Below are positions 43 to 28,784 of a DNA stretch of 64,000 nt, one piece after another; position 1 is the first letter of the stretch, and each line of letters begins with the position of its first letter. Location of the stretch: positions 2,046,001 through 2,110,000 of the forward strand of contig NZ_CP067112.1 of assembly GCF_016615815.1 (NCBI RefSeq), in the 5' to 3' direction. The position numbers and the translations under genes were made by a program. This DNA comes from Luteimonas sp. MC1572. GTDB lineage: Bacteria; Pseudomonadota; Gammaproteobacteria; Xanthomonadales; Xanthomonadaceae. The notes under the pieces were generated by a model, which saw only the letters and a program-made list of their open reading frames with translations, had not been told where the DNA came from and ran no database searches.

Positions 43-1743
43 TCACATCCGCGACGCTGTCAGCTCGATATCCGCGTTCTGCCAGGCCGCCGCGAACCGG
101 CGCCTGGCATCCGCCGCCTCGCGGGTCTTGCGCTGCGCGTCCAGGCTCTTGGCCAGGCCGAACAGCGACCAGCCATTGCCCGGATTGCGGCGCAGCTCTT
201 CGCGATAGACCTTTTCGGCGTCCGCCGCGCGCCCCGCGTCGAGCAGCACTGCGCCCAGGGTGTGGCGCACCGGCGCATGCCAGCCGGGTGGTTCGTCATA
301 GGGAATGCCGTCTTCGATCTTCACGGCTTCGCGCAGCGCCGCTACCGACGCAACATGGTCACCACGCGCGGCGGCGATTTCGGCGCTGAGCACGCGCTCG
401 GCGATTCGCGCCGAGTGCGCCAGCGGATAGCGGTCCCACACCATCAAGGTGTCCATCGCGGGGTCCGCGGCAAGCGGTCGCAACGCAGCGAGGTGGCGGT
501 CGGCATCGGCCGGTCGCGACTGCCGCACGGCCGCCATGCCTTCCGCGTAGTGCCAGATCGCGGTGACGTAGGGCAGGTCCGGGGCCGGGTTGGGCGCGGC
601 CGCGATCTCGTCCCAGCGCCCGAAGCGCACGCGCTCGAACCACGGCGTCATCCAGTAGTGCTGCAGCCCGGCGAACCCCGGCTGGCGCATCAGCTCCGGC
701 AAGTTGGTGCGTTCGGACGTGTGCCGCGCGGCCTCGCCGGCAAGCTTGCTGCTGCCCTCCATGCTCGCGGCGAACCACAGGAAATGGTGGTTGTGCGGTA
801 CGTAGCCGAGGGGATACACGCCCTGCACGTTGCCGCGGCAGATCGCGAGATACGCGTCATCGGCCTCGATGGCGCGCTTGTTGGCGAGCACGGCGTCGTG
901 CCAGCGGCCGACGCGGGCGTAGATATGCGCGGGCATGTGCACCAGGTGCCCCGAGCCCGGGATCAGTTCGCGCAGGCGGTCGGCGGCCACCACGCCGCGC
1001 TGCGGATCGGCGGACGCCTCCACCGCATGCACGTACAGGTGCAGCGCGCCGGCGTGTTCGGGATCACGCGCGATCACCGACTCCAGCACTCGCACGATCT
1101 CGGCGGTATGGCCCTTGGGCCGCAGCGAGGCGTCGTAGTAGTCCCAGGGCTGCAGGTCCATGAGCGACTCGGCATGCAGGACCGCCGCATCGAGGTCATC
1201 CGGGCGCTGCTTCACCAGCGTGCCGGTTGCCGTGGCATAGGCCTCGTCCAATGGGCGGCGATTCTCCGGCGGTTGCGCGGCGTAGCGTGCCGACAGCGCC
1301 TCGATGAATGCCTGCTCGCGGGCGGTCGCCTTCGGCGCCAATTCACGCGCGCGCTGCAGCCGGCTCCAGGCGTCGGCGTTGTCGGCGGGATCCATGGCGG
1401 CGTTGACGTGCGGGCCGAGCACCAGCGACGCGCCCCACCAGCACATCGCGCACGCCGGGTCGAGTTCGGTGGCCTTGAGGAAGGCGCGTTCGGCGGCGTC
1501 GTGGTTGAAGCCGTAGGTCAGCGCCAGGCCCTGGTCGAACCAGCGCTGCACCTCGGGATGGGTACTGCTGACCGGGAAGCTGTAATCGCCCAGTCCCTCC
1601 AGCAGCACCGCGCCGACCAGGGCCATTTCCGGGGGTGACGACCGCGGCGCGTCCGCCGTGGAGGCGTGCTGGCCGCAGCCGGCACAGGCGAGGGCCAGCG
1701 CCGCTACGGCGCACGACACGGAAACGGGGATTCGACGGTCCAT
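43..1743 (-). CDS. Tetratricopeptide-repeat lipoprotein, function unknown
   Basis: 566-aa protein. The start at 1743 (MDRRIPVSV) is preferred over an upstream in-frame start because GGAGG lies 6 nt before it and because it gives a normal signal peptide: two arginines, a hydrophobic core, then cysteines at 20 and 23 that could be lipidated. The mature part is helical with TPR-like units, for example around residues 85-105 (AERAFLKATELDP) and near the C-terminus around 510-545. Histidine-rich stretches (HLYVHAVEA, HMPAHIYARVGR) lie mid-protein, but no recognised catalytic motif is visible. It stands alone on the minus strand, separated by about 480 bp from pilZ. Proteins of this kind are probably protein-interaction scaffolds in the periplasm or outer membrane; no specific role can be assigned. 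Confidence 0.75.
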   Translation of the reverse strand: MDRRIPVSVSCAVAALALACAGCGQHASTADAPRSSPPEMALVGAVLLEGLGDYSFPVSSTHPEVQRWFDQGLALTYGFNHDAAERAFLKATELDPACAMCWWGASLVLGPHVNAAMDPADNADAWSRLQRARELAPKATAREQAFIEALSARYAAQPPENRRPLDEAYATATGTLVKQRPDDLDAAVLHAESLMDLQPWDYYDASLRPKGHTAEIVRVLESVIARDPEHAGALHLYVHAVEASADPQRGVVAADRLRELIPGSGHLVHMPAHIYARVGRWHDAVLANKRAIEADDAYLAICRGNVQGVYPLGYVPHNHHFLWFAASMEGSSKLAGEAARHTSERTNLPELMRQPGFAGLQHYWMTPWFERVRFGRWDEIAAAPNPAPDLPYVTAIWHYAEGMAAVRQSRPADADRHLAALRPLAADPAMDTLMVWDRYPLAHSARIAERVLSAEIAAARGDHVASVAALREAVKIEDGIPYDEPPGWHAPVRHTLGAVLLDAGRAADAEKVYREELRRNPGNGWSLFGLAKSLDAQRKTREAADARRRFAAAWQNADIELTASRM

Positions 1744-1931
1744 GGGAGGCCTCCGGCAACGGACGACACTCACCGGACAACGCGGTGCCGGATGGCGGGC
1801 GGACAGGCGCGATCGCTCCCGCGGACTGGCCCCTTCGCGCTCTTGTGTGGGGCCCTGGTCAGTGACCGAGAAACGGTTTCGCCACCGGCGTGAAGGGTGA
1901 TCGCTGAGCCGGGGCTCGGAGGGCCCCTGTG

Positions 1932-2023
1932 GTGGCCGGGAGGCCTTCGCGGCTCATGTCCCCCGGATCCGCCTGGCGGCGGATGCCTCCTCCTTTACTT
2001 CCCCGCGAAGGCCTCCCGGCCAC
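1932..2023 (-). repeat. Structured palindromic repeat, copy A
   Basis: Outer arms 1932-1952 and 2003-2023 are a perfect 21-bp inverted repeat (GTGGCCGGGAGG... and its complement). They enclose an inner 7-bp hairpin (ATCCGCC at 1967-1973, GGCGGAT at 1978-1984) flanked by unpaired segments 1953-1966 and 1985-2002. Read on the minus strand these segments are GAAGTAAAGGAGGAGGC and CCGGGGGACATGAG. The same two segments recur in copy B with only one base different, while the stems differ. This suggests a structured RNA or DNA element whose loops matter. The family name is not known to me. Confidence 0.7.
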
Positions 2024-2106
2024 TTCGGGGCGGTGGGCTGGCTGCCAGTACCGGCGGCATGCGCGGGATCGCGGGGCGTGCTTCTCAAACCATGGCGTAG
2101 TGCGGC

Positions 2107-2208
2107 GCACCGGGTGCCAAGGCCTTGAGGGCGAAGTCAAGGAGGAGGCGGTGGCCGCAGGCCATCGCCGGGGGACATGAGCCCCCAAAGGGCCTTGGTA
2201 CCCGGCAC
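2107..2208 (+). repeat. Structured palindromic repeat, copy B (inverted relative to A)
   Basis: Outer arms 2107-2126 and 2189-2208 pair at 16 of 20 positions plus two G-U pairs. The inner hairpin GGTGGCC / GGCCATC (2150-2156 and 2160-2166) forms seven pairs including one G-U. The unpaired segments GAAGTCAAGGAGGAGGC (2133-2149) and CCGGGGGACATGAG (2168-2181) match copy A, whereas both stems have different sequences. The element ends 16 nt beyond the pilZ stop codon, so transcripts of the fab-pilZ run would carry its complement at their 3' end; it may act there as a terminator or stability element. Confidence 0.7.
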
Positions 2209-2224: not shown

Positions 2225-2577
2225 CTACATCGTGTGCGTGGGCTTCTCCGCGGTCAGCGTGCCGGCCAGCAGCGTCTCGATCCTGCCCTTCACGTTCTCG
2301 CCCTCGGCGGTGTCGGCGAACTGCACGCCGATGCCGGCGGTGCGATTGCCCTGCGCGCCCGGCGGCGTCACCCAGACCACCTTGCCGGCGGCCGGCAGGC
2401 GTTCGCTGGATTCCGGGAGGGTCAGCAGCACGAAGACCTCGTCGCCGAGGAAGTACCGCCGCGTGGTGGGCACGAAGATCCCGCCGTGCTTCAGGTACGG
2501 CATGTAGGCCGCATACAGCTGCGCCTTGTCCTTGACCGCGAGGGACAGGATGCCTTGCCGCGCACCACCGGTTGAAC

Positions 2578-2581
<4 letters not shown>
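2225..2581 (-). CDS. pilZ: PilZ domain protein, type IV pilus assembly regulator
   Basis: 118-aa single-domain PilZ protein. It lacks the RxxxR and D/NxSxxG signatures that bind cyclic di-GMP; GGIFVPT occupies the latter position. That is the known pattern of the PilZ founder subfamily (Pseudomonas PilZ, Xanthomonas PilZ), which in Xanthomonas binds the FimX EAL domain and the pilus ATPase PilB instead of the nucleotide. Its start codon overlaps the holB stop (ATGA), and holB-pilZ adjacency is typical of Pseudomonas and Xanthomonas. It is the last gene of the long minus-strand run and is followed 16 nt later by a structured repeat. The partner genes fimX and pilB are not in the window. Confidence 0.88.
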
Positions 2582-5314
<2,733 letters not shown>

Positions 5315-28622: not shown

Positions 28623-28652
28623 TGCGCCCCCGGCCCTCGCGGTCGGGCACCC

Positions 28653-28743
28653 GGAGAGGTGGCAGAGCGGTTGAATGTACCTGACTCGAAATCAGGCAGG
28701 CGTTTATAGCGCCTCGGGGGTTCGAATCCCCCCCTCTCCGCCA
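28653..28743 (+). tRNA. tRNA-Ser (anticodon CGA)
   Basis: 91 nt class II tRNA. The acceptor GGAGAGG pairs with CCTCTCC, the anticodon arm is CCTGACTCGAAATCAGG with anticodon CGA, a long variable arm is present, the T loop is GTTCGAATCC, and CCA is encoded at 28741-28743. Confidence 0.96.
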
Positions 28744-28784
28744 GATACGCAAAGGCCCCCGCAAGGGGGTTTTTGCGTATCTGG
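28741..28784 (+). terminator. Extended bidirectional terminator that includes the tRNA CCA end
   Basis: Arms CCAGATACGCAAAGGCCCCC (28741-28760) and 28765-28784 pair over 20 positions (18 Watson-Crick plus two G-U) with a GCAA tetraloop. The core CCCCC-GCAA-GGGGG followed by TTTTT is a standard intrinsic terminator, but the arm continues back to the tRNA's own CCA. The mature 3' end is therefore sequestered in the primary transcript. Confidence 0.8.

Follow-up and report, generated by a model that had tools for sequence, protein, structure and literature searches.

A composite hairpin element in Luteimonas

The window analysed here is a stretch of 64,000 nucleotides from the genome of Luteimonas sp. 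MC1572 (contig NZ_CP067112.1, positions 2,046,001 to 2,110,000). Towards its left end, between two genes encoded on the minus strand, lie two hairpins in opposite orientation separated by a spacer. The genes and the parts of the element are as follows.

43 to 1773, minus strand: gene with tetratricopeptide-type (TPR) repeats, its 5' end towards the element; the domain matches are weak, all below the Pfam cut-offs
About 1921 to 2211, no strand: composite element of about 290 bp made up of hairpin 1 (minus), spacer and hairpin 2 (plus); the outer limits are approximate, the surrounding intergenic DNA having diverged
1925 to 2030, minus strand: hairpin 1 (type 1), inverted repeat of 28 nt at 89%, fold z -6.8
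1925 to 1952 and 2003 to 2030, minus strand: outer arms of hairpin 1
1985 to 2001, minus strand: 5' conserved strand of hairpin 1, GAAGTAAAGGAGGAGGC, exact motif match
1967 to 1984, minus strand: inner hairpin of hairpin 1
1953 to 1966, minus strand: 3' conserved strand of hairpin 1, CCGGGGGACATGAG
2031 to 2106, no strand: spacer separating hairpins 1 and 2, 76 bp
2107 to 2208, plus strand: hairpin 2 (type 2), fold z -6.7
2133 to 2149, plus strand: 5' conserved strand of hairpin 2, GAAGTCAAGGAGGAGGC, exact motif match
2150 to 2167, plus strand: inner hairpin of hairpin 2
2168 to 2181, plus strand: 3' conserved strand of hairpin 2, CCGGGGGACATGAG
2225 to 2581, minus strand: gene for a PilZ domain protein (PF07238, E 1.3e-10), its 3' end towards the element

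Along the motif-bearing strand each hairpin reads outer stem, GAAGTNAAGGAGGAGG, inner stem, CCGGGGGACATGAG and the return of the outer stem. The outer stem is 21 bp in the covariance model and up to about 28 bp in the window; the inner stem is 8 bp. A preliminary description of this DNA had placed inverted repeat copies at 1932-2023 (minus) and 2107-2208 (plus), and these positions were recovered by covariance model R1, which matches at 1931-2023 on the minus strand (E 5.2e-22) and 2111-2205 on the plus strand (E 5.5e-19). The loop motifs are exact in both: GAAGTNAAGGAGGAGGC at 1985-2001 (minus) and 2133-2149 (plus), and GGGGGACATGAG at 1953-1964 (minus) and 2170-2181 (plus). Judged within the window only, the significance of the motif is modest, at least two matches being found in 5 of 100 shuffles with one mismatch and in 2 of 100 with three mismatches. 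Both hairpins fold better on the motif-bearing strand than 200 of 200 shuffled sequences (z -6.7 and -6.8). Their opposite strands likewise fold well (z -5.6 and -8.0), so fold energy does not separate the strands. Elsewhere in the window, an Rfam match to the sX4 small RNA (28642-28774) overlaps a tRNA match on the same strand (28653-28740), and the sX4 family may derive from a tRNA-containing transcript.

Copies are arranged as outward-facing doublets

To the core pattern, the window's own genome (G000, a single contig of 3.02 Mb) returned 37 copies against none for the reversed control, and 41 against none with a looser pattern. The 3' loop has 44 exact copies in this genome; with one mismatch allowed there are 51, against 5 for the reversed control. 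Most of the copies are paired, with a minus copy on the left and a plus copy on the right. All 17 complete units, aligned end to end, run type 1, spacer, type 2 with the hairpins facing outward. These units occur in either chromosomal orientation, are 79-93% identical (median 85%) and differ in spacer length. The two copies in the window, correctly placed in the preliminary description, are therefore not independent and form the halves of one composite. Other sites in the genome have a single hairpin or a degraded partner, and the units L012 and L014 bear the inner hairpin of the opposite type.

The outward arrangement is shared by 87 of the 91 two-hairpin opposite-strand clusters in other genomes. 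In other genomes, 87 spacers span 39-259 bp with a peak near 60. Spacer sequence is weakly conserved, though the hexamer CGGTGG is present in 25 of the 87 where 6 were expected. Single hairpins are frequent (58 of 155 clusters), and in another genome of the same genus (G312) 12 of 20 stretches have one hairpin only, several with a variant loop. With lone hairpins this common, the unit that moves may be something other than the doublet. Same-strand neighbours are rare (6 of 155 clusters).

Locus L068 of G213 has three consecutive same-strand hairpins at positions 957-1572, spaced at about 261 bp; this direct array recalls the description of the repeat BRE, discussed below. Short tandem repeats are also expanded within or beside the element, among them CCACAG units and GCGCCACGCCCA-type units (the L019 spacer and the L016 right flank in the Luteimonas genome).

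Distribution among bacterial genomes

The exact core is found in 10 of 247 genomes of the window's family, from 3 of 54 genera. The preliminary description had called for a search of related genomes for further copies, and model R1 yielded them in 89 of 395 genomes and 7 of 54 genera of the family. Some genomes of a genus match while others do not. Across the class, R1 matched 4 of 369 genomes, three of them from the window's family. A second model, R2, was applied to the family of genome G500 and matched 114 of 250 genomes, representing 76 of 141 genera; across the order of that family it matched 14 of 300 genomes and 8 of 135 genera. At most 10-17 candidates were scored per genome, so that the true number of copies in a genome may be higher than counted and weak copies escape the search.

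Among the matches listed for the exact core in named records (80 of at least 120 stretches) are Luteimonas, Stenotrophomonas, Lysobacter, Pseudoxanthomonas and Thermomonas. The same matches include Rhodoferax, Hydrogenophaga, Variovorax, Rubrivivax, Rhizobacter, Aquabacterium and Sulfurisoma, and from the genera among them the family of G500 appears Comamonadaceae-like. Matches are mostly 80-100 nt long with a GC content of 0.55-0.79. Contigs titled Bacillus subtilis SK7B5 (L170, L207, L217) also carry the element and are probably mislabelled or from a mixed assembly.

No Rfam family matched the element above its gathering cut-off in the window or in 13 further loci; one match far below the cut-off was due to chance. 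No viral contig carried the exact core, no phage matched a betaproteobacterial unit, and no plasmid matched the window unit. The betaproteobacterial unit did match three Variovorax replicons of about 1.2 Mb.

Stems covary around a nearly fixed internal loop

The 21-bp outer and 8-bp inner stems vary in sequence yet pair around a nearly fixed, purine-rich internal loop. In 26 hairpins from three genera, 95.0% of stem cells pair, against 66.4% in shuffled alignments and at most 44.8% in slid ones. In this set 214 cells are changed on both sides (65.5 in shuffles), and two-sided changes are seen in 24 of the 29 pairs (shuffled mean 19.1). These hairpins were picked by their exact loops, which biases the set towards fixed loops and not towards pairing, and their structure was drawn by eye. 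In a larger set of 130 distinct hairpins from 80 loci, taken from named records, the paired share of cells is 90.7%, where shuffles give 54.8% and slid alignments at most 42.1%, and 1170 cells are changed on both sides against 347; the alignment was fitted to a covariance model and so leans towards the structure of that model. All 29 pairs show two-sided change in the larger set, a weak count as 11 of 500 shuffles equal it. The proposal that the arms differ and still pair is thus borne out. So is the related proposal of selection on an RNA or DNA structure with conserved loops, given this covariation and the many further, mostly intergenic copies. In two of the 21 outer pairs, those adjoining the loop, most cells (79 of 127 and 80 of 128) depart from standard pairing, G.A and A.G making up the bulk of them.

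Changes within pairs can also be followed between close relatives. Genome G366 has 12 sites in common with G000, and in the hairpins with exact loops in both genomes 357 outer pairs were compared. One side is changed in 18 of these and both sides in 8, where about 0.8 two-sided changes are expected if the sides are independent. A G.T pair in one of the genomes is involved in 11 of the 18 one-sided changes. Seven of the eight two-sided changes are between Watson-Crick pairs, for example TA/GC and GC/CG.

The loop search pattern fits 246 of 263 distinct hairpins. Within the loop, the left triplet and right pentamer are linked: AGT/ACATG occurs 147 times, AAT/ACATT 53, AGT/ACATT 19 and GGT/ACACG 12. 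An A to G change on the left accompanied by T to C on the right is compensatory, and the loop is partly structured. The GA/GAG form of the loop would allow two G.A pairs and the GA/TTC form standard pairs. What is left unpaired is a purine tract, NAAGGAGGA opposite GGGGG, which would fit a G-quadruplex or a protein-bound loop as candidates.

Strand asymmetry of the stems

If the element acted as a duplex cruciform, or if its palindromes were maintained by strand-blind repair, G.T and A.C mismatches would be equally frequent. They are not, which argues that it is one strand whose folding counts. On the strand with the loop, G.T outnumbers A.C among the mismatched cells by 40 to 6 in alignment A1, which was not fitted to a model, and by 121 to 15 in A2 and 248 to 29 in A3; as covariance models favour G.U, alignments A2-A4 lean towards G.T. 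Three rows of A2 read a hairpin on the opposite strand, and A1 is without such rows. Counted by hairpin, 104 in A3 have more G.T, one has more A.C and 26 are ties; in A4 the numbers are 45, 0 and 11. The G.T excess is distributed over most stem columns. In A3, G.A and A.G together outnumber C.T and T.C by 231 to 12, two columns supplying much of the difference. These counts indicate that what is conserved is the folding of the loop-bearing strand, whether it acts as RNA or as single-stranded DNA. The loop-bearing strands of a unit are opposite strands, and so no single RNA contains both.

Gene context and the possibility of an RNA

Units are mostly intergenic and lie towards the 3' ends of genes, with divergent gaps avoided. 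In G000, both neighbouring genes are within 500 bp for 22 of the 25 clusters, and of these 14 are in convergent, 8 in tandem and none in divergent gaps. Elsewhere 43 of 63 clusters have such neighbours: 29 tandem, 13 convergent and one divergent. As background, the loci of the latter set have 72 tandem, 31 convergent and 28 divergent gaps of 100-800 bp (n=131). A larger overlapping set of 92 clusters has 52 tandem, 35 convergent and 5 divergent, with 38 more clusters too far from a gene. Overlap with a called reading frame was seen for none of the 25 clusters in G000 and 5 of the 63 elsewhere. Genes were called with a home-made codon-usage caller, which found four of the five confirmed genes in the window and missed 2578-3624. 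By eye, several copies adjoin terminator-like hairpins.

One alternative explanation of the element is a functional RNA. Within transcripts the hairpin would then stabilise 3'-UTRs, be processed into a small RNA or act as a sponge that takes up an RNA-binding protein. The near absence of divergent gaps (0/22 in G000 and 1/43 elsewhere against 28/131 in the background; 5/92 in the larger set) is in keeping with this, and the tolerance of G.T by strand together with frequent G.A pairs is RNA-like. The loop sequence UCAAGGAGGA also fits the CsrA/RsmA consensus. A transcribed hairpin should, however, be kept better in the sense direction, and it is not. Between genes of the same direction, 43 sense hairpins have a mean of 24.9 pairs of 29 and 42 antisense hairpins 25.0, with loop scores of 1.42 and 1.76. 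Comparing the two hairpins within each of 33 units, the sense one is better paired in 14 and the antisense in 12, and the better loop is sense in 6 and antisense in 14. As sense hairpins are not better kept than antisense, host transcripts do not seem to be what counts. Matches are also patchy within one genus. None of 87 trimmed spacers has a TATAAT-like box with at most one mismatch, and outward transcription of small RNAs from the spacer was rejected for lack of this -10-like box. If BRE belongs to the same family, the 80-nt transcript of one BRE copy seen on Northern blots, according to the available text of that report, would speak for an RNA (PMC3110155). On balance the sequence comparisons moderately favour recognition as single-stranded DNA, and we regard a functional RNA as unlikely.

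The preliminary description had also suggested that a purine-rich sequence could bind ribosomes. This idea is not supported. Downstream of the ATG the arms vary freely, with the result that no peptide is conserved, and between genes of the same direction the sense hairpin shows no better preservation than the antisense one.

Units come and go between close species

At the window site, the pilZ side was matched in all 12 relatives searched. Compared by eye, four of them (G366, G320, G304 and G355) match the sequence on both sides, with a short gap where the element would be. A search of 16 loci from the 12 relatives, accepting E values up to 1, detected no hairpin. Nine further junctions were compared between G000 and G366. 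In three (L040, L061, L010) element-like remnants are retained in G366, which look like loss of the element there. Three others (L019, L022, L023) have no remnant recognisable by eye, and in L011, L016 and L020 other sequence is present. At L023 alone, a short T-rich repeat flanks the element in G000 and is single in G366, possibly a target duplication or else a deletion between repeats. Among the comparisons of G000 with G366, no insertion event was caught in the act. For three sites of G000 (L018 in part, L063 and L064) the matching place lies outside the G366 stretches compared. Units come and go between close species.

A second kind of repeat was seen in G366 (L266 upstream of pilZ, L317 and L321), built of TTCGCGCC-type units in tandem, in many cases with an A-rich stretch after them. 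It occupies intergenic places where G000 has the hairpin element, and it looks like a separate dispersed repeat favouring the same gaps.

Dead repeats could also keep complementary stems through template-switch repair of imperfect palindromes or through conversion of one copy by another, the fold itself being free of selection. Seven of the eight two-sided changes are Watson-Crick swaps, each needing more than one point mutation, which suggests templated change. Hairpin losses occur, and L012 and L014 carry the inner hairpin of the other type. Strand-blind repair nevertheless predicts as many A.C as G.T mismatches where the observed ratio is 6.7-8.6 to 1, and near-fixed loop strands beside diverging stems, like the paired changes within the loop, are not explained by it. 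There is in our judgement little chance that the repeats are dead in this sense.

For some BIMEs, binding of gyrase, IHF or DNA polymerase I is reported. The hairpins could similarly form a chromosomal protein-binding site with a host role, their dispersal being incidental; the broad distribution, repeated architecture and positions towards gene 3' ends are those such a site might have. Its presence is patchy within the genus and the family, with sites differing in whether they are occupied, and the conserved fold is that of one strand and not of duplex DNA. A host binding site is for these reasons very improbable.

A candidate mobile repeat, probably read as a folded strand

The reading that we prefer, with a probability of roughly 0.55, is that the element is a non-autonomous, dispersed mobile DNA repeat resembling a REPIN or BIME doublet and read as a folded single strand by an enzyme acting in trans. 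Such an enzyme would recognise the loop-bearing strand in its single-stranded state, to which the lagging-strand template, for instance, would give access. It would read the loop and the shape rather than the stem sequence, and would copy or move the unit. The stems would remain paired because only well-folded copies get used. More tentatively, these may be very widespread selfish doublets (one Burkholderiales-type family has them in 76 of 141 sampled genera, the window's family in 7 of 54), copied by an enzyme that reads a folded single strand by its purine-rich internal loop and ignores stem sequence. They would then represent a mobile system guided by structure and separate from RAYT/REP, IS200/IS605 and integrons, a possibility that we find rather doubtful.

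Candidates for the mover were sought among known transposases and neighbouring genes. The Y1 transposase domain PF01797 has no match in G000, G312 or G366, all rich in hairpins, though 18 of 25 genomes do match. No hairpin lies within 1.5 kb of any of 24 PF01797-matched loci. A RAYT or Y1 transposase was rejected as the mover on this lack of linkage and its absence from the copy-rich genome; a transposase outside PF01797 could fill the role. A mover gene linked in cis was likewise rejected for the loci covered: when the open reading frames of 80 of at least 120 stretches were clustered, no transposase-like cluster was found among five members examined. The largest cluster spans 16 loci, and two of its members read as ABC ATPases. 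Lastly, an autonomous copy with an internal gene was considered for two hairpins of G000 that lie 2.4 kb apart (C1:2374885 and 2377294, L061) and rejected, with only ordinary-looking frames between them. One of the two is a type-1 hairpin on its own, the other a type-2 hairpin that is truncated, and the frames look like NAD synthetase and small antitoxin-like proteins.

A gene resembling extradiol dioxygenases recurs in 5 of the 80 loci (L172, L192, L194, L199, L203), at most 260 bp from the hairpin in four of them. This is perhaps one inherited site.

The attC sites of integrons have the core box GTTRRRY, which is absent from the conserved strands of the element. With its copies dispersed rather than in cassette arrays, we give almost no credence to a folded recombination site of the attC type, for all that attC sites, in the available text (PMC8266576) and in general background, follow a like logic of variable stems, conserved unpaired bases and a strand-specific fold.

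Comparison with known systems

A family without an Rfam match in the stretches searched reaches dozens of copies in at least one genome and about half of the sampled genera of one large family. Its near-fixed loop and free stems make it a clean natural experiment on recognition by shape, and it raises the question of which protein binds the folded strand. With the covariance models, annotation of the element can be extended to many genomes.

The nearest functional parallel to the mobile repeat proposed here is with REPINs and BIMEs, which the available texts describe as inverted REP doublets, one folded strand of which is read by a RAYT (TnpA-REP) transposase supplied in trans (PMC3116915, PMC2817692, PMC8266576). 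As in those accounts, the element is extragenic and dispersed, forms inverted doublets with a preferred spacing, shows compensatory changes and has a spacer less conserved than the repeats. The strand bias of its mismatches would also fit the reading of one strand only, a property of REPs, while fold energies favour neither strand. Unlike REPINs, it has a unit of about 290 bp with two hairpins of about 93 nt, where the same texts give REPs as 20-40 bp. It also differs from REPs as described there in having a conserved internal loop and no GT(A/G)G head, in the lack of a RAYT beside it in the tested loci, and in reaching 44 copies in a genome without PF01797. In the listed copies, no conserved columns corresponding to a GTAG or GT(A/G)G head were seen by eye beside the stems. 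Without the REP head tag and with no linked RAYT gene, the element would work like a REPIN and is not classed as a REP.

The GTAG- and CGTC-tagged palindromes are likewise high-copy, palindromic and mostly between genes; in the available description they are 20-40 bp with a terminal tetranucleotide, whereas the element is untagged and has a conserved internal loop of 30 nt (PMC3733652). With attC sites and the end hairpins of IS200/IS605 it would share the reading of folded single-stranded DNA by shape and unpaired bases, as far as these are covered in the text cited (PMC8266576) and in general background. Unlike either, the element has no attC core, no linked transposase or integrase was found for it, and it is arranged in inverted fashion.

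No description of this structure was found in the literature searched, and BRE was the only close candidate. BRE was reported by Hot et al. in 2011 from Bordetella, Polaromonas, Delftia, Rhodoferax, Acidovorax, Verminephrobacter and Azoarcus (PMC3110155). The available text of that report gives BRE a length of 75-91 bp, sometimes 40-60 bp, and a mean GC of 69% in Bordetella, describes direct tandem arrays (VNTR) besides the 80-nt transcript from one copy, and suspects mobility (PMC3110155). In that text BRE is about 90 bp long with about 69% GC, mostly intergenic, variable between genomes and present in Comamonadaceae, Rhodocyclaceae and Bordetella (PMC3110155). In these features it resembles the element, whose matches in Rhodoferax, Hydrogenophaga, Variovorax and others fall in genomes of Comamonadaceae type. 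The short forms of BRE are about the size of the conserved core of the hairpin, about 48 nt (PMC3110155). Inverted pairs, stem covariation, a strand effect and gammaproteobacterial copies do not figure in the available text on BRE, and its direct arrays are unlike the usual arrangement of the element (PMC3110155). Compared by description only, from this partial account, BRE and the hairpin element have about an even chance of being one family (PMC3110155). The claim of an undescribed element is uncertain, since this 2011 report, on the text available, may concern the same thing (PMC3110155). If the two are the same, the structure with its covariation and strand effect, the inverted arrangement as doublets and the occurrence in Gammaproteobacteria are new, and the BRE report would gain a fold, a second hairpin as partner and a broader set of hosts.
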